A stretch of 64,000 nucleotides of DNA from Dactylosporangium fulvum (GTDB lineage: Bacteria > Actinomycetota > Actinomycetes > Mycobacteriales > Micromonosporaceae). The stretch lies in contig NZ_CP073720.1 in the NCBI RefSeq assembly GCF_025137375.1, positions 4,550,501-4,614,500 of the forward strand. Reading direction: 5' to 3'. This document shows, one piece after another, positions 5,395 through 46,868 of the stretch. The translations under genes and the position numbers were made by a program. Position 1 is the first letter of the stretch, and each line of letters starts with the position of its first letter. Under the pieces are notes generated by a model. It saw nothing but the letters and a program-made list of their open reading frames with translations, was not told where the DNA came from and did not search any database.

Positions 5395-7912
5395 GTGCGC
5401 GGGGAAGACTGCCGTGGGCGTCGACCGGATGGCGCCGGGCTGCGGACCACCCCCGCGTGCGCGGGGAAGGCGTCGGGGTGTAGGCGCCCAGCAGCGCGCT
5501 GACAGGACCACCCCCGCGTGCGCGGGGAAGACCGGTTCATGTGCCCGCCGAGCGTCTGCGCCGAGGGACCACCCCCGCGTGCGCGGGGAAGATTGATCCT
5601 GTCTCTGGTGCATGCTCCGCTGCTCAGGACCACCCCCGCGTGCGCGGGGAAGACCGGTCGACGGGCCTCGGCTTGTGTCAGGCGGCCGGACCACCCCCGC
5701 GTGCGCGGGGAAGACCTACTCGCCGCCGCCACCGAGATCCGCGAACGCCGGACCACCCCCGCGTGCGCGGGGAAGACCAGCTGCTCGACGTCGTCCGGCA
5801 CGCCGAGGCCGGACCACCCCCGCGTGCGCGGGGAAGACGGCGGCAACGTCCTCGGCCTGTTCACCGACCTGGGACCACCCCCGCGTGCGCGGGGAAGACG
5901 GTTACTGGCGCCAGACCGGCGAGCTGGCGGGCGGACCACCCCCGCGTGCGCGGGGAAGACCCGGCTTAACCCAGATCGATACGGGTCGACACCGGACCAC
6001 CCCCGCGTGCGCGGGGAAGACGGCGTGGTCGCGTCCCTCGCGGTCGCGGAGGTGGGACCACCCCCGCGTGCGCGGGGAAGACAACCAGCCGCGGACGGCC
6101 TCCAGGACCGGTTCCGGACCACCCCCGCGTGCGCGGGGAAGACAAACTGCCGAGCTTGTCGGAGATGTCGTCGATGGGACCACCCCCGCGTGCGCGGGGA
6201 AGACATCGCGCACCGGATCGCCGAGATCGAACGCGGTGGACCACCCCCGCGTGCGCGGGGAAGACGCGGCATCGAGGCCGATCGCCTCGAACGCCGGCGG
6301 ACCACCCCCGCGTGCGCGGGGAAGACTCCTGCGGGCACCAGGCCGGACAGTTCCACCACGGACCACCCCCGCGTGCGCGGGGAAGACTGGCCCGGTTGCG
6401 GTCACAGCGCCCGCTGGACAGGACCACCCCCGCGTGCGCGGGGAAGACACCGCCTGCTCGTACACGGTGCGGCCGGCGCTGGGACCACCCCCGCGTGCGC
6501 GGGGAAGACCGCTCGACCGTTCGGCCGTCCCCCCGGTGGCGCGGACCACCCCCGCGTGCGCGGGGAAGACCTGCCGTTCGGGCCAGGACCGTTCTTTATG
6601 GCGGGACCACCCCCGCGTGCGCGGGGAAGACAAGGGGTGCCCGTGGGCGCCTGGTGGTGACTGCGGACCACCCCCGCGTGCGCGGGGAAGACGCGCTGTC
6701 CGACATGGCCGGCTACGGCCTGAAGGGACCACCCCCGCGTGCGCGGGGAAGACCGCTGCGGAGTGGCGCCGTACCGCTCACCGGCGGGACCACCCCCGCG
6801 TGCGCGGGGAAGACACCCACACCGCCACGGCCCATGTGAGCGGATGTGGACCACCCCCGCGTGCGCGGGGAAGACTGTCGGCTCTACCGGCTCACCGAGC
6901 AACACGGAGGACCACCCCCGCGTGCGCGGGGAAGACGGCACCACGGCCGGCAACGCCGCCGCTGTCACCGGACCACCCCCGCGTGCGCGGGGAAGACGCC
7001 TCTTCAGGCCCGGCCCCATCGAACAGGTCCGGACCACCCCCGCGTGCGCGGGGAAGACATCGGGCTGCGTGGTTTCACGTGCCGTATGGAGGGACCACCC
7101 CCGCGTGCGCGGGGAAGACGGCCGGTCGCCGTGGACCTCACCGCAGCTCCGGGGACCACCCCCGCGTGCGCGGGGAAGACAACCCACGCAACCTTTCCCG
7201 GCTCGGCCATCACGGACCACCCCCGCGTGCGCGGGGAAGACAGCCCACCGGAGAGGCAGGCGTTGCGGCCAGAGGGACCACCCCCGCGTGCGCGGGGAAG
7301 ACGATCACAGCAACGGTCTTGATGTGGCGGCGCGGGGACCACCCCCGCGTGCGCGGGGAAGACGTGCTCCCCTGCTGGCTGAGTTTTTCTCTCCATGGAC
7401 CACCCCCGCGTGCGCGGGGAAGACGAGACGTCGACGATGCCGTCGGAGCCGCCGCCCGGACCACCCCCGCGTGCGCGGGGAAGACTCCCGTACCCGTGTG
7501 GTCTGTTCTCCGCTTTCCGGACCACCCCCGCGTGCGCGGGGAAGACGCCGACGACGCGACGGCCGCTCGGCCTGTGATGGGACCACCCCCGCGTGCGCGG
7601 GGAAGACAAGCGCGGGGCCTTCGTCGTACCTACGTCATGAGGACCACCCCCGCGTGCGCGGGGAAGACTTGGGCCGGTCGGCGGGGAGCCGCCGAAGGTG
7701 CGGACCACCCCCGCGTGCGCGGGGAAGACGGAGATGGCTGTCAACGGCCTAGCACCCGAGGAGGACCACCCCCGCGTGCGCGGGGAAGACTAAACCAACG
7801 GACGACATACATCCCGTTTCCCCGGACCACCCCCGCGTGCGCGGGGAAGACAGCCACCAGGAAATCCCACCCAACAGCTATGAAGGACCACCCCCGCGTG
7901 CGCGGGGAAGAC
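5395..7912 (-). CRISPR. CRISPR array 1, leader-proximal segment
   Basis: The right part of the split repeat (5395-5409) is followed by 41 complete repeats starting at 5444, 5505 and then every 61 nt (one 62-nt step) up to 7885. With the left segment this makes 70 repeats and 69 spacers. Spacers are 33-34 nt. Repeats are almost invariant; exceptions are 5444 (GAAGGC end) and 5566 (GAAGAT end). The spacer at 5594-5626 is a near match of a spacer in array 2. The leader adjoins 7912, so this segment holds the younger spacers and stays connected to the promoter side despite the IS insertion. Confidence 0.97.
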
Positions 7913-36779: not shown

Positions 36780-38786
36780 CTATGCTGCCTCGGTGGCTTC
36801 CTGCCGCGCCGGGGCGGGGTGGGCTGACCCGTTGTCGCGGCTGGTCCGCAGTCGTATGTCGACCACGCGCTCGGCGCCCCAGACCGTGACGGCTCGTGCC
36901 TCGGTCGCCGCCCACGGCGTCACCACGGTCAGTACGTATCGCCCGCTCGACGGCAGCGGCAGCTCGTACCGCCCGTCCACCGCCGTCAGGGCGGCCTGCA
37001 CCAACTCCCCGCTCAGCCGGGTCAGCGCCACGGTCGCGCCCACGATGTGGCCCTGGGCGTCGCTGACCTCGCCGGCCAGGGTGAGCCGCTCGCACAGGAC
37101 GATAGGTTCGATCTCGTGCCCGGCGTGCAGCGTGGCGAGCCGTGACTGCGGCGCCCAGCCTTCGGCGGCTGTGACGATGAGGTAGCGGCCCGCGCCGGGG
37201 ATCGCCAGGGAGAAGGAGCCGGCCGAGTCGGCTTGGCTCCAGTCGACCTGCTGACCCGACGTCGTGAGCAAGGTGACCACCGCGTTGCGGACGGTGTTCC
37301 CGCCGCCGGTGATCACCTGGCCGCGCACGACCGCCTCGGGTACGTATTCCGTGCTGGCCGACTGTTCGAGGTCTTGCCTCCTCGTCCGGAACAGCGGCAG
37401 CATGAGCAGCGCGGAGACGAGCGACGCGCCGGCGGCGATCCAGAATATGGTGGCGAGCGCGCCGAAGCTGGGGAGCGCGTCACCGTCGACGTTGACCACC
37501 GCCGTCGTAGTGACTGCGGCCAGGGCGGCGCTCGAGGTCGATGTGCCGACGGAGCGCAGTAGCGAGTTGAGCCCGTTCGCGGACGCGGTCTCGGTCGCGG
37601 GGACGGCGCGCATGATCAGGCTCGGCATCGCGGCGAAGGTCATCGACGTGCCGGCCGCGACGAGCGTCGAGCCGACGACGATCTGCCAGAGTCCATGGCT
37701 GAAGAAGACGCGGGCGGCGTAGGAGACGGCCATGATCATGGCCCCGGCCAGCAGGGTCGTCTGCGGGCCGAAGCGGCGGGTGACCGACGCCGACACGGGC
37801 GCCATCGCGCCGAAGACGACCGAGATCGGCGCCATCCACAGCCCGGTGTGCAGGATGTCCAGGCCCAAGCCGTATCCGGTGCGCACCGGTTGCTGCAGCA
37901 GCTGGGTCGTGGTGAGCATGTTGGCGAACATCGCGAACCCCGTCAGGACGGAGGCGATGTTGACCAGGAGTACCGCCCGTCGCGCGGCGACCCGCACGTC
38001 GACGAGCGGGTTGTGCACCCGCAGTTCGAGGGGCAGCCAGACTGCCACCAGGACCAGGCCCAGCACGGCGAGCACGATGGTCTGATAGGACAGCCAGCCC
38101 CAGTGTGAGCCCTTGGACAGGGCGAGCAGCAATGCCGTCGCCGCGGCGGAGAGCAGCAGGGCGCCCGGGAAGTCGAACGATCCGCGGGTACGCACGGGGG
38201 ACTCGGAGACGAGCAGCGCCACCGCCGCGAACAGCACGGCGCCCGCGGCGACGCTGACCCAGAACACCGCGTGCCAGTTCATGTGCTCGACGATCAGCCC
38301 GGCCAGCGGCAGCCCGGCCCCGGCACCGATGGCGAGGGTGCCGCTCATCAGCGACACGCCAAGGGGGAGCCGCCGCGGCGGAAGCTCGTCGCGCATGATC
38401 GCGATCCCGATCGGGACGAGCGCGACGCCGACGCCCTGCAGGGCGCGGGCGGCGATGATGAGCGGCAGGGTCTGACTGAAGGCACCGAGCGCGGAACCGA
38501 CGATCATGACGGCCAGCGCCACCAGCATCATGCGCTTCTTGCCGTACATGTCGGCGAGCCGCGACAGCGTCGGTGTGGCGACGGCCCCCGCCAGCAGCGT
38601 TGCGGTGATCAGCCAGGACGCGTTGTCGGGCGTGGTGTGCAATAGCCGCGGGAAGTCCGGCAGCACCGGCAGCACCAGCGTCTGCTGCAACGATACGGCG
38701 GTGCCACACAACGCCAGCGTGCCGACGGCGACTGCGCTGCGGGTCTTCTCGGCCGTGTCGTTGCCCGAAATGGTGGGCCGATCCAC
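36780..38786 (-). CDS. DHA2-type MFS efflux transporter with C-terminal beta-sandwich domains
   Basis: 668 aa. The first 480 residues form a 14-segment drug:H+ antiporter: LADMYGKKRMMLVALAVMIV is the loop 2-3 motif, and ARALQGVGVALVPIGIAIMR is the motif B region. The remaining 180 residues form two carboxypeptidase-regulatory-like (Cna-B-like) domains, VRGQVITGGGNTVRNAVVTL and LAGEVSDAQGHIVGATVALT. Such tails are known on some actinobacterial MFS proteins; their role is unclear. Its operon includes a TetR gene. Confidence 0.92.
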   Translation of the reverse strand: MDRPTISGNDTAEKTRSAVAVGTLALCGTAVSLQQTLVLPVLPDFPRLLHTTPDNASWLITATLLAGAVATPTLSRLADMYGKKRMMLVALAVMIVGSALGAFSQTLPLIIAARALQGVGVALVPIGIAIMRDELPPRRLPLGVSLMSGTLAIGAGAGLPLAGLIVEHMNWHAVFWVSVAAGAVLFAAVALLVSESPVRTRGSFDFPGALLLSAAATALLLALSKGSHWGWLSYQTIVLAVLGLVLVAVWLPLELRVHNPLVDVRVAARRAVLLVNIASVLTGFAMFANMLTTTQLLQQPVRTGYGLGLDILHTGLWMAPISVVFGAMAPVSASVTRRFGPQTTLLAGAMIMAVSYAARVFFSHGLWQIVVGSTLVAAGTSMTFAAMPSLIMRAVPATETASANGLNSLLRSVGTSTSSAALAAVTTTAVVNVDGDALPSFGALATIFWIAAGASLVSALLMLPLFRTRRQDLEQSASTEYVPEAVVRGQVITGGGNTVRNAVVTLLTTSGQQVDWSQADSAGSFSLAIPGAGRYLIVTAAEGWAPQSRLATLHAGHEIEPIVLCERLTLAGEVSDAQGHIVGATVALTRLSGELVQAALTAVDGRYELPLPSSGRYVLTVVTPWAATEARAVTVWGAERVVDIRLRTSRDNGSAHPAPARQEATEAA

Positions 38787-39007: not shown

Positions 39008-39691
39008 TCAGGGCGTGCCGGGCGCCTCGTCCCACGCGGTGTTGAGTGCCTGGAGGAACGCCTCGACGGGTTGCCCGCCGGAGAGGGCGTACTTGCCGCC
39101 GAAGATGAAGAACGGCACCCCGGAGATGCCGAGCTGCTGCGCCTGGCGGATGTCCGCCTGGACGTCGTCGTCGAACACGCCGGTGGCCAGCGCTTGCGCG
39201 GCAGCCGCCGGGTCGAGGCCGGTCTCTGCGGCGAGGCCGGCCAGCACGGTGTGGTCGCCGACGCTCAGGCCCTCGGTGAAGTAGGCCCTGAACAGCCGCT
39301 GCACCATTTCGTGCTGGCGCCCGGCCTTGGCGGCGAAGTGGATGAGCTGATGCGCCGCGCGGGTGTTGGCCGCGATCGCACGCTCAGAGCGGTATTCGAG
39401 GCCGATGGCCGCGCCGCGCGCGGCGATCTGCGCGTTCATCGCCTCGATCTGCTGACGCTGGAAGCCGCGCTGGCGCACCAGATACTCGGTCAGCCCGACT
39501 GCGGTGTCGGGTGCCAGATCGGGCATGAGCTGGTAGCTGTGGTGGCGGATCTGCGTCTGCTGGGCGTGCGGGAACCGCTCGAGGGCTTGCACCAGCAACG
39601 TGGTGCCCATGTAACACCACGGGCACATCACGTCGCTCCAGACGTCGATGACCAGATGCCCGGCTGCGCGGTCGGATGCTGCCCCGGCCAT
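39008..39691 (-). CDS. DsbA-family FrnE-like oxidoreductase
   Basis: 227 aa from the ATG at 39691. IDVWSDVMCPWCYMGTTLLV holds the CPWC active site, and GISGVPFFIFGGKYALSGGQ the cis-Pro loop. There is no signal peptide, so it is a cytosolic FrnE-type thiol oxidoreductase of the kind often found with polyketide or other secondary-metabolite genes. The ATG overlaps the stop of the 60-aa Cys-containing peptide gene (TGATG), so the two are translated together; an alternative start at 39718 would lie inside that gene. Confidence 0.9.
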   Translation of the reverse strand: MAGAASDRAAGHLVIDVWSDVMCPWCYMGTTLLVQALERFPHAQQTQIRHHSYQLMPDLAPDTAVGLTEYLVRQRGFQRQQIEAMNAQIAARGAAIGLEYRSERAIAANTRAAHQLIHFAAKAGRQHEMVQRLFRAYFTEGLSVGDHTVLAGLAAETGLDPAAAAQALATGVFDDDVQADIRQAQQLGISGVPFFIFGGKYALSGGQPVEAFLQALNTAWDEAPGTP

Positions 39692-39873
39692 CAGGAACAG
39701 CCCCCGTTCAGGTCGCACACGCCGTACGCGTCATCAGCGCACAGGAAGGTCAGCAGTGGCTCCTCGGCACTGTCCTGCGTCAGGTCACCCTGCGACACCG
39801 CGTCAACGGGCGCCGCCTCCCGGGGGAACGGAGTTTCGGGCGTCACAGCCGTGCCATTGGTGGTTTCTGTCAT
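39691..39873 (-). CDS. 60-aa Cys-containing peptide, possible peptide-natural-product precursor
   Basis: The ATG at 39873 is preceded by CGAGGAAAA. The product has an acidic, Cys-free first part (MTETTNGTAVTPETPFPREA, then DLTQDSAEEP) and a short C-terminal segment with three Cys (LLTFLCADDAYGVCDLNGGC, then S). This leader/core shape recalls ribosomal peptide precursors, and the gene is translationally coupled to a thiol oxidoreductase. No lanthipeptide synthetase or other maturase is in view. It could also simply be a small redox partner. The frame choice is supported by the exact TGATG overlap. Confidence 0.55.
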   Translation of the reverse strand: MTETTNGTAVTPETPFPREAAPVDAVSQGDLTQDSAEEPLLTFLCADDAYGVCDLNGGCS

Positions 39874-39931
39874 AGTGGTTTTCCTCGACGTTTCCTATCG
39901 GGAGCGCACGTGGACTGCGTGCGCGCGGGCG

Positions 39932-39959
39932 CCGCATGCCCGCCGCGGCGGGCATGCGG
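39932..39959. terminator. Perfect 28-bp palindrome between YceI and peptide genes
   Basis: CCGCATGCCCGCCG is followed directly by its reverse complement. As RNA it would fold into a stem of about 12 bp with a tiny loop. There is no U tract. It may act as a terminator or as an mRNA-processing hairpin that sets the peptide/DsbA genes apart from the yceI operon. Confidence 0.6.
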
Positions 39960-39984
39960 TGAGCCCGGGACGCACCGGAGCCCG

Positions 39985-40549
39985 TCAGCGCGCGAGCGTG
40001 GCTTCGATGTCGATGCGGATCTCGACCCTGCGGCTTACGAGCAGGCCGCCGATCAGCGGCATGTCCAGCAGCTCCGAGCTGAGCCCGAAGTCGGCGCGAT
40101 CGATGGAGCCGGTGGCGGCGATGCCCATCCGCGTCTTGCCGATCGGGTCGGGGGCGAGGATGCCGCCGGGTTCCAGCCACAGCGGAACCTGCCGGCTCAT
40201 CCCCTTGAGGGTGAGCTCGCCGTCGAGTACGTAGCCGTCGGCGTCCTCGCGCAGGGCCGTTGAGCGGTAGCTCATCAACGGGTGGGCCGAGACGTCGAGG
40301 TACTCGGGGGCGCGCAGGTGCTCGTCGCGCTCGCGGTCGTTGGAGTCGATCGACGAGGTCTCTATGGCCGCGGCCACCGTGGACTCCAGCGGGTTCTCGC
40401 GGGTGACGACCTCGCCGGCGAACACGTTGAACCGGCCGTGCATCGTGTTGACGAGCATGTGCCGGACCGTGAAGGTCACCGCCGAGTTCGCCGGGTCGAT
40501 GTCCCAGCGCCCCGCCGTGTAGCCGGGTATCGTCGCGGTGGCGCTCATG
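39985..40549 (-). CDS. YceI-family polyisoprenoid-binding-like protein
   Basis: 187-aa lipocalin-like barrel. GRWDIDPANSAVTFTVRHML is the classic YceI start, followed by VAAAIETSSIDSNDRERDEH, YLDVSAHPLMSYRS and DRADFGLSSELLD. There is no signal peptide, as in many actinobacterial members. The start codon overlaps the stop of the SnoaL-like gene (ATGA), so they form an operon. The function in this family is poorly defined; isoprenoid quinone binding is the usual guess. Confidence 0.92.
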
Positions 40550-40994
40550 CGGGCTCTCCCAGGCCGAAGACCTCCTGGGTGCCGAGCATGACGAACAGCG
40601 CCTCGTCGAAGCGGGTGAAGCGCCAGCCCCCGGGGGTGCGCGCGACCGAGGCGTCGAAGGTGCCGAGGGACTCCTCGAACAGGCCCGCCTTGTCGCCGAT
40701 GCCGACGTGGTAGGCCTTCACGCGTACGCTCGCCTCGGCGGTGTCCCCGTCGAACGAGACGCGGAAGTTCGACACCATGTGATGGGTGCGGCCCACTTTG
40801 CCGACCAGGTCGCTGATGAAGCCGATGACCTGCTCGCGCCCGTCGACCTGGTACTGCTCGAACCAGAGGGATTTCACGTCCGGCGTGAACAGCCCCTCGA
40901 GCCGGGTCCAGTCCTTGAAGTCCAGGGCGTCGGCGTACTGGTGGAAGAGATCGAGGATCTCCACGCGGTCCTCGATGCGAACGGCGTCGGCCAT
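40545..40994 (-). CDS. SnoaL-like/NTF2-fold protein
   Basis: 149-aa cone-fold protein. EDRVEILDLFHQYADALDFK, DWTRLEGLFTPDVKSLWFEQ and HHMVSNFRVSFDGDTAEASV are characteristic of the SnoaL_4 type. These serve as small cyclases, dehydratases or binding proteins. The ATG at 40994 follows CCAAGGAGGG. Upstream lie two GGTAG/CTACC palindromes (41034-41091), so the TetR encoded at 43707 probably represses this gene and yceI. Confidence 0.9.
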   Translation of the reverse strand: MADAVRIEDRVEILDLFHQYADALDFKDWTRLEGLFTPDVKSLWFEQYQVDGREQVIGFISDLVGKVGRTHHMVSNFRVSFDGDTAEASVRVKAYHVGIGDKAGLFEESLGTFDASVARTPGGWRFTRFDEALFVMLGTQEVFGLGEPA

Positions 40995-41033
40995 GATGGC
41001 CCTCCTTGGGTGTTGGTCGGCCGGAGAAAGAAG

Positions 41034-41091
41034 CGGTAGTTGTACTACCGGATAACTGGAGGTTAGCGAAGAAATGGTAGTGCTGCAACCG
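41034..41091. promoter_or_regulatory. Paired TetR-type operators before the SnoaL-yceI operon
   Basis: CGGTAGTTGTACTACCG (41034-41050) is a perfect 7-3-7 inverted repeat. A weaker copy, GGTAGTGCTGCAACC, lies at 41076-41090. The same motif occurs before the quinone oxidoreductase gene and the tetR gene. The next 195 bp up to the SDR gene contain nothing recognised. Confidence 0.7.
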
Positions 41092-41287
41092 TTTACCGGC
41101 CCCGCGGACCCGCCTGGGCTTGCGGCGAGTCGCGGTAATGCCGCCGTCAAACGCGAGCCGCTGCCGTGAACGCAGGTGGGTCGTCCTACCCGAGGCAGGG
41201 AGCGGCCCCTGGACGCTGTCGGGCTGAGCGAGGCGGCGACGCGGCGACGCCTGCCGTGACCGGGTTGGCCCCGGCGGAGCGGCGGGA

Positions 41288-42070
41288 TCAGTACCTGTAG
41301 GACTGGCCTCCATCGATGGTGATGACGGCGGCGTTGATGAACGGCGCCTCGCCGGACAGGAGGAAGGCGATGAGGTGGGCGACCTCGTCGAGGGTGGCGA
41401 AGCGCTTCATGGGGTTGTCGCTGAGGAACTTCCTGGCGGCCTCTTCGGGGTTGTCCGGGTCGAGCTGCCGCAGGTACTCCTCGACCATGGGGGTCAGCAC
41501 GGCGCCCGGAGCGATGGCGTTGACCGAGACGCCGTACTGGCCGTATTCCACTCCGGCGTTGCGGGTCAGGCCCACGACACCGTGCTTGGACGTCGCGTAG
41601 GGCGACTGGAGGCCGGTGCCGCGGATGCCGCCGACAGAGGCGGTGTTGACGACGGCGCCGGAGCCCTGCTCCTTCATCACAGCCAGGACGTGCTTGAGGC
41701 CGAGGAAGACGCCGCGCAGGTTGATGGAGAGGACGCGGTCGAACTCGTCCGTGCTGGTGTCCTGGATCAGGTTCTGCGTGCCCTCGATGCCGGCGTTGTT
41801 GAAGAAGCCGTCGATGCGGCCGTAGGCGGCCACGGTGTCGGCGACGTAGCGCTCGACGTCGGTCTCTGACGACACGTCGGCGGTGACGGTGATCACCTCG
41901 GTGCCGGGTGAGGCCTTCTCGATCTCCTCGGCGGTGACGGCCAGCCCCTTGGCGCTGATGTCGACCAGCGACAGCCGAGCGCCCTCGGAGGCGAGCTGCA
42001 GGGCGGCCGCCCGTCCGATTCCGGAGCCACCGCCGGTGATCAGCGTGACCTTGTTGTCGAAACGTCCCAT
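41288..42070 (-). CDS. Short-chain dehydrogenase/reductase
   Basis: 260-aa classical SDR using NAD(P). The cofactor motif is TLITGGGSGIGRAAALQLAS, with Asp in LSLVDISAKG favouring NAD. NNAGIEG follows strand 4, and the active site is Ser in NTASVGGIRG with YATSKHG. The substrate is unknown. It lies between the quinone oxidoreductase and SnoaL-yceI genes on the same strand, with a 244-bp gap before it in which no gene was recognised. Confidence 0.94.
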   Translation of the reverse strand: MGRFDNKVTLITGGGSGIGRAAALQLASEGARLSLVDISAKGLAVTAEEIEKASPGTEVITVTADVSSETDVERYVADTVAAYGRIDGFFNNAGIEGTQNLIQDTSTDEFDRVLSINLRGVFLGLKHVLAVMKEQGSGAVVNTASVGGIRGTGLQSPYATSKHGVVGLTRNAGVEYGQYGVSVNAIAPGAVLTPMVEEYLRQLDPDNPEEAARKFLSDNPMKRFATLDEVAHLIAFLLSGEAPFINAAVITIDGGQSYRY

Positions 42071-42314
42071 GATCGTGCCCTTTCGTGCATGGCGGCTGGA
42101 CGCCGCCGGATGGTGCGGATGTGTTTCCAGCTCGGGGCCAGGCCCGAGTGAGCCGCTCCGGGTCCGGCCGGGCGTTCCTTCTAGGGATGCGGCAGGCCCG
42201 GGCGGCGCTCCTGGCGCCGTCGGTGCGGGGGCGGTGTCACGCAGGGGTAAGCGACAGCAGTACGCGGCCCACCGGCCGGCCGGGCAGGCTTCGTCCCGGC
42301 CGGCTCGGGTGAGG

Positions 42315-43241
42315 TCAGGCGACGCTCAGGACCGCCTTGCCGCGCAGGCGGCCGGCGGACATCTCCCGCAGCACCGGGCCGGCGCTGCTCCAGTCGCCGC
42401 GGTGGCCGATCTCGACCCGGAGCCCGCCCTGCGAGGCCAGGCTGAGCAGTGCCTCGATGTCCGCGGCGTCACGGCTGCCGTCGCCGTCGGCGTAGACGAA
42501 GTGCCGCAGGGTCAGCGAGGTGCCCTCCTGGAGTAGGCGGAAGAAGTCCAGGGTGATGGGGTTGCCGCTGGCCTGGCCGAACCAGAGGCTCTGGCCGCCG
42601 GGGCGGAGCTTGTGGATCGTCTTGGACCCGAGGTCGCCGCCGACGGACTCCAGCACGATGTCGAAGGCGCCGCCCTCGACGGCGTCGATGTCGAGGGCGA
42701 TCCGGGCGCCCAGCGCCGCCATGTGCTCGGTCGGCTGGCCCGCCTCGGCGACGGCGGTGATCTCGGCCCCCGCTGCGACGGCGAGCTGGATGAGGACCTG
42801 GCCGACGCCGCCCCCGACGCCGGTGGCCAGGATTCGGCGCCCCTGGAGCGGGCCGGCCAGGGCGAGTATCCGCCGGGCCACCAGACCGCCCAGCGGGAGC
42901 GCGGACGCGGAGGCGGAGTCCACGTTGTCCGGGATGACCGCGAGGCGGTCCGCCGAGGCGGCGACGTACTCGGCTCCCCCTCCGCCCGCAGGAAGGTGCA
43001 GGACCACGCGGCTACCCGCCGACGGCCCGCTGCCGTCGGCGGCAGCCCTGGCGACGACCCCAGCGGCGTCGATGCCAGGGCGGAAATCGCCGGCGGGGCC
43101 GCTCAGGTACAGAAAGTCCGCCCGATTGAGCGAGATGTCGGTCACCCGGATCAGCGCCTCGTGGTGTGCCGGGGTGGGAAGGTCGACTTCGCCCAGTTCG
43201 GTCAGGGTTTCCGGGTTGCCGGTGGGGATGAGCGCGCGCAT
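42315..43241 (-). CDS. Zinc-free medium-chain NADPH:quinone oxidoreductase
   Basis: 308 aa of the zeta-crystallin/QOR group. The GroES-like part has RADFLYLSGPAGDFRPGIDA with AGVV, and the Rossmann motif is ATGVGGGVGQVLIQLAVAAG. No zinc-ligand Cys cluster is present. The ATG at 43241 is chosen; a TTG at 43253 is also in frame. Two GGTAG/CTACC palindromes lie at 43267-43320, just upstream. With the SDR and SnoaL genes this looks like a TetR-controlled response to a reactive or quinone-like compound. Confidence 0.92.
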   Translation of the reverse strand: MRALIPTGNPETLTELGEVDLPTPAHHEALIRVTDISLNRADFLYLSGPAGDFRPGIDAAGVVARAAADGSGPSAGSRVVLHLPAGGGGAEYVAASADRLAVIPDNVDSASASALPLGGLVARRILALAGPLQGRRILATGVGGGVGQVLIQLAVAAGAEITAVAEAGQPTEHMAALGARIALDIDAVEGGAFDIVLESVGGDLGSKTIHKLRPGGQSLWFGQASGNPITLDFFRLLQEGTSLTLRHFVYADGDGSRDAADIEALLSLASQGGLRVEIGHRGDWSSAGPVLREMSAGRLRGKAVLSVA

Positions 43242-43266
43242 GAAAGCAAGCACCTTTCTTGTGAAG

Positions 43267-43320
43267 CGGTAGCATTACTACCTCTTCACCGTAGCGCGCA
43301 AAACGGTAGTGTTACAACCG
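43267..43320. promoter_or_regulatory. Paired TetR-type operators before the quinone oxidoreductase gene
   Basis: GGTAGCATTACTACC (43268-43282) is a perfect 5-5-5 inverted repeat. CGGTAGTGTTACAACCG (43304-43320) is a one-mismatch copy 37 bp away. The arrangement (one perfect and one weaker site, about 40 bp apart) repeats that before the SnoaL operon. Confidence 0.7.
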
Positions 43321-43706
43321 GATCGCCTTTTCGCGGGTGGCGGCGCCGTCAGGCCAGCATCGAGAGCTGTCGTCATCGCGCTCACGGCGCTCACAGGGGC
43401 GGGCTGAATGCCGGCATCCGGGCCGGCGGAGGCGCCGACAGTGCGGCGCTCACGGAGGGCGCCGCCGGCGCGCCGTGGACCCGCGGTTTGACGAGGGAAA
43501 CGAGCTGTGGCGCGGGGTTGATGATGCCTGCCGCCGCAGTCGTCGCACCGATTGCGCTGCCGATCCCGTCCGGAGCCGGAGGCCGCGGGCGAGTGCGCCG
43601 GACCATCCGGGAAGCGCGCCGACCCGGCCCGAGCAACGAAGAAGGATCCGGGCCGCGCGGCGTGGCCCGCCGTCGGGTCCCGCCGAAGTTCCGGAGAGGG
43701 GCGCCG
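43321..43706. other. Gene-free stretch between oxidoreductase promoter and tetR end
   Basis: Only GC-driven open frames without motifs are present. No repeat, RNA gene or clear terminator was recognised. Confidence 0.4.
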
Positions 43707-44261
43707 CTACGCGGCCGGGACGCGCAGCCCGGCCAGCATCACCTCGTACGTGATCTCCCGCTGCCGGGGGGTTGAGGCCGAGTCAGCCATGCGCATGAGC
43801 GCCGCCACGTCCTCGGCGGTGACGTCCTGGCGCAGCCGGCCGCCGTCCCGGGCCCGGTCGGCGACCGGGGCGATCAGGGAAGTCGCGATCAGCTGGCCCT
43901 GCTCGGCCGCCTGCACGCTCGTCCGACACAGGGCGTCGAACAGGTGCAGCCCTTCCTCGTCGAGCGCGCATCCGCGGACGAACACCGTGCGGAAGGCCTC
44001 CCAGTCGTCGGCGACCGCGGCGGCCTCCTCCGCGACCTCGCGCGCGCCGCCCGCCAGGTCCTCCAACAGTTGCAGGACGAGGTCGTCCTTGGTCGGGAAG
44101 TGCCGGTAGAAGGTGGTCGCCCCCACCCCTGCAGCCCGGGCCACAGCCTCGATGCTCAAGTCGGGCCCCTGCTCTGCGAAGGCCTGGCGGGCGGCGTCGA
44201 GCAGCCGCCGCCGATTGCGGACCTGGTCTTTGCGCGGCGCGCGCTGTGACGCTGCAGTCAA
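43707..44261 (-). CDS. TetR-family repressor, probable regulator of local oxidoreductase regulon
   Basis: 184 aa. The HTH is RLLDAARQAFAEQGPDLSIE with AVARAAGVGATTFYRHFPTK, a canonical TetR N terminus (TTFYRHF). The C-terminal part resembles the SbtR-like/TetR_C group (FRTVFVRGCALDEEGLHLFD). A palindrome GGTAGCTATACTACC lies 70 bp upstream, and the same motif stands before two neighbouring transcription units, so autoregulation plus control of those units is inferred. Confidence 0.92.
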   Translation of the reverse strand: MTAASQRAPRKDQVRNRRRLLDAARQAFAEQGPDLSIEAVARAAGVGATTFYRHFPTKDDLVLQLLEDLAGGAREVAEEAAAVADDWEAFRTVFVRGCALDEEGLHLFDALCRTSVQAAEQGQLIATSLIAPVADRARDGGRLRQDVTAEDVAALMRMADSASTPRQREITYEVMLAGLRVPAA

Positions 44262-44330
44262 AACGAGCTCCTCGTCGGGACGCCCGTCGATGCGGCAGCG
44301 GCAATCCGGCCTCGACGGGACGGTAAATTC

Positions 44331-44345
44331 GGTAGCTATACTACC
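44331..44345. promoter_or_regulatory. TetR operator before tetR
   Basis: GGTAGCTATACTACC is a perfect inverted repeat (5-5-5) that matches the operators at 41034 and 43268. It sits in the promoter region of the tetR gene. Confidence 0.7.
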
Positions 44346-44727
44346 ACTTCAATCGACGGACGGTCATCCAGCAACGCACGACCGGCTGACTCATGACGCA
44401 CCGACGGCTCGTGCGCGACTTGCGAAAAGCTTCCAGCCAGCCCAGAAGCCATGATCTATATCTCGATGATCGACAATCTCGCCAGGCGCATAACGGACGA
44501 GAACACCGTCACCTGGCGAGGAACATGCTGGGGCGAAAAGCCTGTATCAAAAGCCCTTTCAGAGGCCCGTCCGTGCCGCGCCGGCCCGCAACCCGCCAAC
44601 CACGCCGGCGCTGGCCGACGGTAGATGAGCGCGCCGGAAAACACGTCGTCACACATTGGGCCGCAGCAGTCGCTGAGCGTCCGGATTCTCCTGTGACACG
44701 GAGTGATTGAGCTGGGATCGTGTACCG
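44346..44727. other. Gene-free stretch
   Basis: No supported gene. The region has lower GC in places and separates the tetR promoter from the HflX-like fragment. No RNA gene or repeat was recognised. Confidence 0.4.
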
Positions 44728-45132
44728 GTGACCGCCATCCGCTCTGTAGTCCTGGTGGGGCTGTTCTCGGCGAAGGACCGCGGCTACCAGGCGCGGCTCG
44801 ACGCCCTGGAAGCGCGTGTGGCAGCGCTGGGAGGGCACGTGCTGGGACGCTTCGTCCAGCGCAGGGGCGTCTCCGACGGTGGGGTACGGCTCCTGACCGC
44901 CCCGTTGTCCCGGCGCTTCCTCGTCGGCCCGGGAAAGCTCGAAGAGATCGCGACGACCTGTTCGAGTCAGAGCATCGACGCTGTCGTGTTTGCCAATGAC
45001 CTGAGCGCATACCAGCGCCGCTGGCTGTCGACCCGACTCGGGCGTCCGGTGCTCACCGCAACCGACCTCGACCAATCAGTGGAAAGCCTGACCGCCCGAA
45101 CCGGATCTCAACCTCGGGGACCGCATGTGTAA
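44728..45132 (+). CDS. HflX N-terminal-domain-like protein, probably a fragment
   Basis: 134 aa starting at a GTG at 44728. VVLVGLFSAKDRGYQARLDA, LGRFVQRRGVSDGGVRLLTA, FLVGPGKLEEIATTCSSQSI and DAVVFANDLSAYQRRWLSTR correspond to the N-terminal nucleotide-binding-like domain of the ribosome-associated GTPase HflX. The GTPase domain is absent: the frame stops shortly after and overlaps the end of the convergent ROK gene by 57 nt. It is either a truncated hflX copy or a stand-alone HflX-like domain protein. Confidence 0.6.
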   Translation: MTAIRSVVLVGLFSAKDRGYQARLDALEARVAALGGHVLGRFVQRRGVSDGGVRLLTAPLSRRFLVGPGKLEEIATTCSSQSIDAVVFANDLSAYQRRWLSTRLGRPVLTATDLDQSVESLTARTGSQPRGPHV

Positions 45133-46227
45133 CGGGTCGTCGAGGAAGGCGGCGAAGCCGAGCTCTGCGGCTCCCAGCAGGGCCGCGTTCTGGCCGAGGA
45201 TGCCGGGCCGCAGGTCGGTCGGCCGTCGGGTGTCAGGCGTGGCGTGATGGGCGATCCTCGCGTGCACCTGTTCTGCGGCGCCGGCGTATAGGTAGCGCAG
45301 CGTGCCGTCGAGGATGACGACCTGTGGGCGGATGAGGGTGATCAGGTTGGCGACGGCGATGCCGAGCCAGTCGCCTGCGATGGCGAGAGCTTTCGCGGCC
45401 GTATGGTCGCCTGCCGCAGCGTCACGCACCATCGCCCGGACAGCGTCGTGATGGCCGGCCTCGGGGTCACGTCCCGCGGTCGCCAGCAGGGCGTCGCGTC
45501 CGAGTCTGGTGTCGAGGCAACCGAGTGAGCCGCACGAGCATGGTCGTCCGTGCTGTGGATCGACCAGCATATGGCCGATGGTGGGCGTCTGTCCGTCGTG
45601 GTGTCCGAGTATCGCGCCGTCAACAATGATGCCGCCGTCCACGCGGTCGCCGCCCTGCAGGTAGACGACGTCGTGGAAACCGGCCCCGGCGCCTCGTTCT
45701 CGCTCGGCGACGGCGGCCAGCTGGGCCCGACGACCGACAACGACCGGTCGTCCAAACAGGCGTCGCAGGTCGGTCCCGATGGTCATGGGTTCGGCGTCGA
45801 GCGCGGCTCCCGCTCCTACGCACGCGGAGCCCGGTGTGGCGGACTGCTGTATCTGCTGGCCGAGTTCCGCAAGGACGTCACACATGTCCTGGCCGGAGGT
45901 GCGCGTGGGCGTGTCGGCTTCGCGGCGGTCCAGCAGTTGCCCGCCGAGGCCGACTCGGGCGGCTACCGACCGGTCTGTTCCGATGTCGAAGGCCAGGACG
46001 TAGGCGCGCTCCGGTCGCGGGCGGACGACCAGCGATGGGCGCCCGGCCCCTGAACGGGTGGCCGCATGTTGGTGCTCAAGTAGGCCCGCGGCGGCAAGTT
46101 CCCTAGTCAGGGCCATGATCGTGCTGCGGTTGACGCCCATCCGGCGGGCCAGAGCAGCGCGGGACATCGGACCGCTGCGATGCACATGCGTGAGCAGGGC
46201 GCCCAGACTCGGCCGGAATCGGCTCAT
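45076..46227 (-). CDS. ROK-family transcriptional regulator
   Basis: 383 aa. A winged helix (MSRAALARRMGVNRSTIMAL, TRELAAAGLLEHQ) is followed by a ROK sugar-kinase-like domain with VLAFDIGTDRS and the zinc/ROK motif GRPCSCGSLGCLDT. The region after VGAGAALD is shorter than usual, so part of the sugar site may be lost. The start overlaps the end of the HAD gene (ATGA), making a three-gene operon with HAD and DeoR. A carbohydrate-responsive repressor role is likely. Confidence 0.88.
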   Translation of the reverse strand: MSRFRPSLGALLTHVHRSGPMSRAALARRMGVNRSTIMALTRELAAAGLLEHQHAATRSGAGRPSLVVRPRPERAYVLAFDIGTDRSVAARVGLGGQLLDRREADTPTRTSGQDMCDVLAELGQQIQQSATPGSACVGAGAALDAEPMTIGTDLRRLFGRPVVVGRRAQLAAVAERERGAGAGFHDVVYLQGGDRVDGGIIVDGAILGHHDGQTPTIGHMLVDPQHGRPCSCGSLGCLDTRLGRDALLATAGRDPEAGHHDAVRAMVRDAAAGDHTAAKALAIAGDWLGIAVANLITLIRPQVVILDGTLRYLYAGAAEQVHARIAHHATPDTRRPTDLRPGILGQNAALLGAAELGFAAFLDDPLHMRSPRLRSGSGGQAFH

Positions 46228-46868
46228 GCTCGCCGGCCGTCGGGCTCGGGCTGTGGCCGGGTGGCGTCGATCACCTGGGCCGTCTCGGCAGGGCCGGTGA
46301 ACAGGTGGGTGTGCAACCCGAGGCGTTCAGCGGCGTACACGTTCTCGGCACGATCGTCGATGAACAGCACACGATCGGGTGCCAGGCCGAGCTCGCGGCA
46401 GCACCAGAGGTACGCGTCGGCGTCCGGTTTCGCCCGGCCGATACGGCAGGAGAAGGCGACGAGGTCGAAGTGCCGCAGCCACCGCCCGTGGTGCCGTTCG
46501 TAGTAGGCGGCCAGGTCCTCGGGAATGTTCGACAGCAGCGCCAGGCGCACACCCGCCGCTGCGGTCCGTTCGATCAGAGCGACCATGTCGTCGTCGATGG
46601 CGCTCCAGCTTGCGACGTCCGCGGCGATGAGGGCGGTGACGCGGTCCTCGTCGAAGACGGTGCCCAGCGCGGTTGCGACCCATCGCCAATACTCGGCGCC
46701 GGTGATCTGGCCCAGGTCGTAGGGGGCGCGCAGCCGCCAGTAGACGTCCCAGAACGCGGGCGCCGGGACGCCGACGGTCGCGGCCACTGTGCGCTTGGCC
46801 GCTGGGGATTGCCGGCGGGCGATGACACCGAAGAGATCGAACAGGACGACGTCGGGCATGTCGATCAC
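46224..46868 (-). CDS. HAD-superfamily hydrolase
   Basis: 214 aa. Motif I is VLFDLFGVIA, where the second Asp of DxD is Phe, as in some epoxide-hydrolase N-terminal-like HADs. Motif II is ALLSNIPEDLA, motif III the Lys of IGRAKPDADAY, and motif IV VLFIDDRAENVYAAERLGLH. It lacks the usual acid/base Asp, so phosphatase activity is uncertain. The GTG at 46868 overlaps the DeoR stop (GTGA); an ATG at 46859 is the alternative. Confidence 0.88.
   Translation of the reverse strand: MIDMPDVVLFDLFGVIARRQSPAAKRTVAATVGVPAPAFWDVYWRLRAPYDLGQITGAEYWRWVATALGTVFDEDRVTALIAADVASWSAIDDDMVALIERTAAAGVRLALLSNIPEDLAAYYERHHGRWLRHFDLVAFSCRIGRAKPDADAYLWCCRELGLAPDRVLFIDDRAENVYAAERLGLHTHLFTGPAETAQVIDATRPQPEPDGRRA

Follow-up and report, generated by a model that had tools for sequence, protein, structure and literature searches.

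Genes and operator-like sites of the locus

The stretch of DNA analysed here (the window) comprises 64,000 nucleotides of the Dactylosporangium fulvum genome (NZ_CP073720.1, positions 4,550,501 to 4,614,500) and contains a minus-strand cluster around the gene of a TetR-family regulator (43707–44261; 184 amino acids, TTG start with GAGGAG upstream). The same strand carries genes for a medium-chain dehydrogenase/reductase (MDR) resembling quinone oxidoreductases (QOR; 42315–43241, 308 amino acids), a short-chain dehydrogenase/reductase (SDR; 41288–42070), a SnoaL_4 domain protein (40545–40994), and a YceI-like protein (39985–40548) whose start overlaps the SnoaL stop. Start codons in the cluster are our own choice. 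The QOR-like protein matches MDR-type Pfam domains and scores 99.4 bits against the PIG3-type quinone oxidoreductase model TIGR02824, below the curated score of 296.8.

Perfect copies of the palindrome GGTAG-N5-CTACC occur three times in the window, at 41035–41049 (GGTAGTTGTACTACC), 43268–43282 (GGTAGCATTACTACC), and 44331–44345. They precede SnoaL-yceI, QOR, and tetR, respectively, as an earlier note on this DNA had described, except that the first coordinate is 41035 and not 41034. Among 100 dinucleotide shuffles, the mean was 0.01 perfect sites and none contained three. The second, weaker sites that the same note had placed about 40 bp away at the first two promoters are likewise real, with one mismatch each: GGTAGTGCTGCAACC at 41076–41090 (41 bp start to start from 41035) and GGTAGTGTTACAACC at 43305–43319 (37 bp from 43268).

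Genome-wide (10,494,953 bp), perfect GGTAG-N5-CTACC is found at five places, three of them in the cluster. All five genomic copies of the tighter form GGTAGYNNNRCWACC fall inside the 3.3-kb cluster. The pattern GGTAGYNNNRCWRCC has 29 distinct genome places (32 strand hits), and those that end in ACC are exactly the five sites of the cluster. Raw pattern counts depend strongly on base composition, as seen from the reversed control pattern, which gives 35 matches per strand genome-wide.

The two remaining perfect places, 5131771 and 8635462, violate the Y6/R10 rule that is obeyed by all 21 sites of eight close loci (window included). The first (L004, 1501–1515) lies 70 bp past an FAD-monooxygenase-like open reading frame (ORF), with the matched part of an EgtA-like (ergothioneine) gene (350 bits, below its cut-off of 370.8) following after ca. 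140 bp. The second (L086, 2463–2477) overlaps a predicted ORF start on the minus strand, and a plus-strand ORF that by eye resembles dihydrolipoamide dehydrogenase follows ca. 95 bp after it. We did not count them as distant targets because they break the rule and because two is close to the extrapolated chance number (0.01 per 64 kb). Both are near predicted gene starts and may have a regulatory role.

The sites accompany the regulator in other genera

The regulator carries an N-terminal TetR_N helix-turn-helix (PF00440, 57.3 bits, cut-off 24), and its structure model (pLDDT 90.4) is all-helical with 9 helices. TetR-family regulators rank highest among its PDB matches, and MAB_4384 (PDB 5ovy, 24% identity) scores best of the solved structures in both sequence-profile and fold comparison. 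The SbtR-like TetR_C_43 model (PF21597) reached 21.7 bits, below its cut-off of 27. The protein is predicted to bind its palindromic operator as a dimer, and such palindromes are conserved beside its gene.

A search over named genomes found the closest regulators in S. prunicolor (77% identity), S. netropsis (63%), and Sphaerimonospora (57%). Profiles of four TetRs, searched at E 1e-35 in the family of the window genome and at E 1e-40 in other groups, detected relatives in 10 of 354 genomes of that family, its own included, and in none of the six other genomes of its genus. At the stricter threshold, relatives were present in 3/394 genomes of the class (own included), 3/392 of the genus of S. 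netropsis (itself included), and 6/240 of the family of the relative G408 (itself included). The distribution is patchy and the nearest relatives belong to a different genus, which suggests that acquisition was horizontal. G+C content is neutral on this point (70.3% in the cluster, 69.6% in the window) and does not mark the cluster as foreign.

Sites before tetR and/or QOR are present in six relatives of other genera. In Sphaerimonospora (5942/5971), G408 (a perfect pair, 6447/6483), and G1248 (3525/3553), a pair lies between divergent tetR and QOR, and in S. prunicolor a pair (5320/5357) separates divergent QOR and SnoaL genes, while a further site, at 5876, is that of tetR. G809 and G1004 each have three sites, i.e., a QOR pair and a tetR site, and the second site of the pair has the same CAACC half as in the window. 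The partner genes recur as well: QOR adjoins TetR or is one gene away in seven of the eight close loci (window included), the QORs of the six loci outside the window are 55–84% identical to its own, and a SnoaL copy of 73% identity adjoins the operator pair of S. prunicolor.

A site with at most one mismatch lies within 250 bp upstream of tetR at 11 of 22 clade loci (7/8 close, 4/14 distant) and at none of 77 control TetR loci (Fisher 5.6e-9). We also trained a matrix on the 21 sites of the close loci and tested it on the 14 distant ones, of which 11 had pairs 34–38 bp apart that scored above the maximum of all 77 control loci. Control starts were tblastn match starts and not gene starts, the stretches covered 200 bp for control and 150 bp for test loci, and the counts exclude second copies of loci already included, namely L106 and L113 of S. 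netropsis and L119 and L126 of Sphaerimonospora. Across 394 genomes of the class, the pair pattern occurs at four places, namely two in the window, one directly upstream of tetR in G408, and one in G635, where the surrounding 5 kb hold no relative of the window proteins.

At distant loci the regulator has other partners. Those established by test are an F420-dependent LLM protein in L129 (TIGR03564), an F420-dependent PPOX oxidoreductase in L132 (TIGR03666) that follows a small membrane ORF, an SDR in L134 and in L137, and a SnoaL_2-hydrolase fusion in L102 and in L105. Readings by eye add the LLM protein in L128 and L131, the membrane ORF with the PPOX oxidoreductase in L133 and L135, and the fusion in L103. 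In L132, L133, and L135, TetR lies opposite the small membrane-like ORF and the PPOX-type oxidoreductase; the membrane-like protein of L133, the one tested, has no Pfam match.

Operators and promoters appear to share bases

In the putative SnoaL-yceI promoter, the imperfect operator carries a candidate -35 element TTGCAG (41083–41088), separated by 17 bp from a candidate -10 TAACCT (41060–41065, minus strand), and the perfect operator proximal to the SnoaL start would lie just past the start of transcription. The QOR promoter reads much the same, with a putative -35 TTGTAA (43312–43317) inside the imperfect operator, 18 bp, and a putative -10 TACGGT (43288–43293, minus strand) before the perfect operator proximal to QOR. 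On the gene strand, the upstream sites align as GGTTGTAACACTACC (window QOR), GGTTGCAGCACTACC (window SnoaL), and GGTTGTTCCACTACC (G809 and G1004), each with TTGNNN and, 17 or 18 bp further on, TACGGT or TAACCT; the perfect site starts 5 bp after TACGGT and 10 bp after TAACCT. The hexamer in the imperfect upstream sites has the form TTGYAR, and the likely QOR -10 is TACGGT in G809 and G1004, TACGTT in G408, and TACCTT in S. prunicolor. The tetR promoter would have a single operator that holds its own -10, TAGTAT (44338–44343, minus strand), and TAGYAT is found inside the tetR operators of four loci (window, S. prunicolor, G809, G1004).

At the QOR and SnoaL promoters, two operators would thus flank the -10. 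The upstream one would overlap the -35, with its right half changed to CAACC (read as TTG in the direction of the gene) because it also serves as the -35 hexamer, and the downstream perfect one would lie at or just after the transcription start. The imperfect half-site therefore looks like a compromise between operator and -35. It could instead be that these imperfect upstream sites are relics without operator function and that one operator per promoter suffices, given that in the window the QOR promoter has lost its divergent partner and has an imperfect upstream site. The CAACC form is nevertheless also present at the other window promoter and in G809 and G1004, which looks like retention, at least in the role of a -35 element, and not like drift; we regard relics as unlikely, though they are the strongest of the alternatives.

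The earlier note had read the paired sites as two dimers on DNA. Twin sites do recur in the clade, but their spacings (28, 29, 34–38, and 41 bp) do not keep a single helical phase, and we think that the geometry of the promoters accounts for them better than two dimers in a tight complex would.

A predicted local regulon

The best explanation overall, and in our judgement a very probable one, is a local TetR regulon in which the regulator would act as an autorepressor through these operators, repressing its own gene together with neighbours. The comparative data make tetR, QOR, and SnoaL-YceI well supported as targets. The twin sites may descend from an older face-to-face divergent promoter that was split by gene rearrangement in the window; the ancestral divergent form would survive as tetR/QOR in G408, G1248, and Sphaerimonospora and as QOR/SnoaL in S. 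prunicolor.

Several observations weigh against this explanation. With two mismatches allowed, the contrast shrinks to 18/22 clade versus 24/77 control loci, and the clade loci are related, so that p-values overstate independence. The matrix test missed three of the 14 distant loci (L130, L137, and the mis-positioned L104, which is counted as a miss), and the tested spacing range of 28–42 bp was chosen after several pairs had already been seen. In the pair search, the reversed control pattern gave 15 strand hits and the real pattern five, so the case rests on the location of the sites and not on their number. S. netropsis keeps the regulator with only a degenerate two-mismatch site, and its 12.5-kb locus has no QOR; an Oxidored_FMN gene lies ca. 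0.9 kb downstream of tetR, past an opposite-strand gene. Finally, a consensus scanner found no sigma-70-type promoter in 39500–44600, so the -10 and -35 readings depend on conservation.

The ligand of such a regulator would be a small molecule (quinone-like, carbonyl, or aromatic) that the enzymes handle; the quinone or electrophile trigger proposed in the earlier note is plausible, as a guess from gene names. A specific version holds that the regulator is a NemR-like thiol sensor of quinones or electrophiles with C98 as the sensor. C98 is invariant in all 22 clade members (alignment A2 contains 21 of them, with L104 left out as truncated), and several partner genes are redox enzymes. However, 56 of 75 outgroup TetRs also have Cys in this column (two of the 77 loci failed the length filter), so it may be structural, and NemR uses several cysteines (PMC7464077). 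We consequently dropped C98 as evidence for a clade-specific redox sensor and consider thiol sensing improbable.

It is harder still to credit that another regulator binds the sites with TetR as a bystander, e.g., the ROK-type protein encoded at 45076–46227 or that of a DeoR-like ORF (by eye) near 46865. Such regulator-like genes do lie within ca. 3 kb of tetR, but the sites travel with TetR and QOR in other genera, the close loci yielded no ROK relative, and the control TetR loci have no site with at most one mismatch (0/77). That the perfect palindromes in 5' leaders form RNA hairpins (attenuators) is just as implausible: the proximal SnoaL site scores terminator-like (a 7-pair stem, then CTTCTTTCTC) and the region has three such sites where 1.4 are expected, but the QOR and tetR sites do not score in this way, the upstream sites precede the predicted transcription start, and site pairs precede divergent genes in relatives.

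Cluster boundaries and neighbouring genes

The earlier note had drawn the regulated set more widely, counting in the SDR and perhaps a 60-amino-acid ORF (39691–39873) and a DsbA-like protein (39008–39691), both on the minus strand and overlapping at the stop of the former and the start of the latter. The regions upstream of SDR, peptide, and DsbA have no site at two mismatches or fewer. The SDR would belong to the regulon by co-orientation only, and membership of the other two is doubtful. A 24-bp perfect palindrome between yceI and the peptide ORF (39934–39957, GCATGCCCGCCG/CGGCGGGCATGC) folds as a 12-pair stem with no T run (stretch z -3.3), and because it separates the two genes, peptide and DsbA are at best possible members.

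The 60-amino-acid ORF ends in FLCADDAYGVCDLNGGCS, has no Pfam or NCBIfam match, and was matched in one of 201 genomes searched, the window's own. Upstream of the cluster, a short plus-strand ORF (44722–45132) matches only the N-terminal GTPase domain PF13167; it is presumably a truncated HflX-like gene. Beyond DsbA, a minus-strand gene (36780–38786) encodes an MFS efflux-type transporter with C-terminal carboxypeptidase-regulatory-like domains, a fusion that is to our knowledge uncommon.

Wider reading and implications

The circuit looks ordinary in kind, i.e., a small chemical-sensing circuit. A broader claim, which we find possible but doubtful, is that an actinobacterial TetR clade shares a design of two operators ca. 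37 bp apart around a single -10 or an overlapping pair. This design would be re-used before different small-molecule enzymes (QOR/MDR, SDR, F420-dependent LLM and PPOX oxidoreductases, SnoaL, SnoaL-hydrolase), with half-sites that drift with the protein, a spacing that holds, operators that double as -35 hexamers, and a clade that senses quinone-like or reactive carbonyl compounds.

A motif from a single genome has become a testable cross-genus operator with named targets. The locus would illustrate clearly how an operator and a promoter can share bases and how twin sites can outlast gene rearrangement. The operator is compact, its tight form has five copies in the 10.5-Mb genome, and it might be usable as an orthogonal regulator part. 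Knowledge of the ligand would indicate which chemistry the redox and SnoaL enzymes handle.

Comparison with known systems

Among the literature matches listed, with subscription journals largely outside coverage, the accessible parts describe no TetR with this operator or gene set, and no TetR clade sharing this promoter design. CssR (PMC8176726) and MSMEG_3765 (PMC5660060) have other motifs. MAB_4384 is the nearest structure, and two dimers on its operator have been proposed (PMC5895659); unlike the sites in the window, its operator is 27 bp long and lies before an efflux pump. E. coli NemR-nemA-gloA is similar as a TetR-family repressor of electrophile-handling enzymes (PMC7464077) and differs in its gene set and in thiol sensing, which is not supported for the window regulator.

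A TetR regulator usually represses a divergent neighbour if the two lie no more than 200 bp apart (PMC3511530), a rule that fits the tetR/QOR pairs of G408, G1248, and Sphaerimonospora. In the Streptomyces SCO7222/SCO7223-type set, an actinobacterial TetR represses a neighbouring oxidoreductase (PMC3511530), whereas in the window tetR and its predicted targets are co-oriented and the motif occurs at three promoters. The Tn10-type tetR/tetA system (tetO1/tetO2) resembles the proposed circuit in its TetR-family repressor, two promoter-overlapping operators, and autoregulation, and it shows no sign of cooperativity between operators (PMC3037858). Its arrangement of twin operators between divergent genes is absent from the window, where tetR, QOR, and SnoaL are co-oriented, but is found in relatives (L007, L112, L127, L005). 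Unlike in Tn10, the targets in the window are enzymes and not a pump, and the twin sites would serve single promoters after rearrangement.

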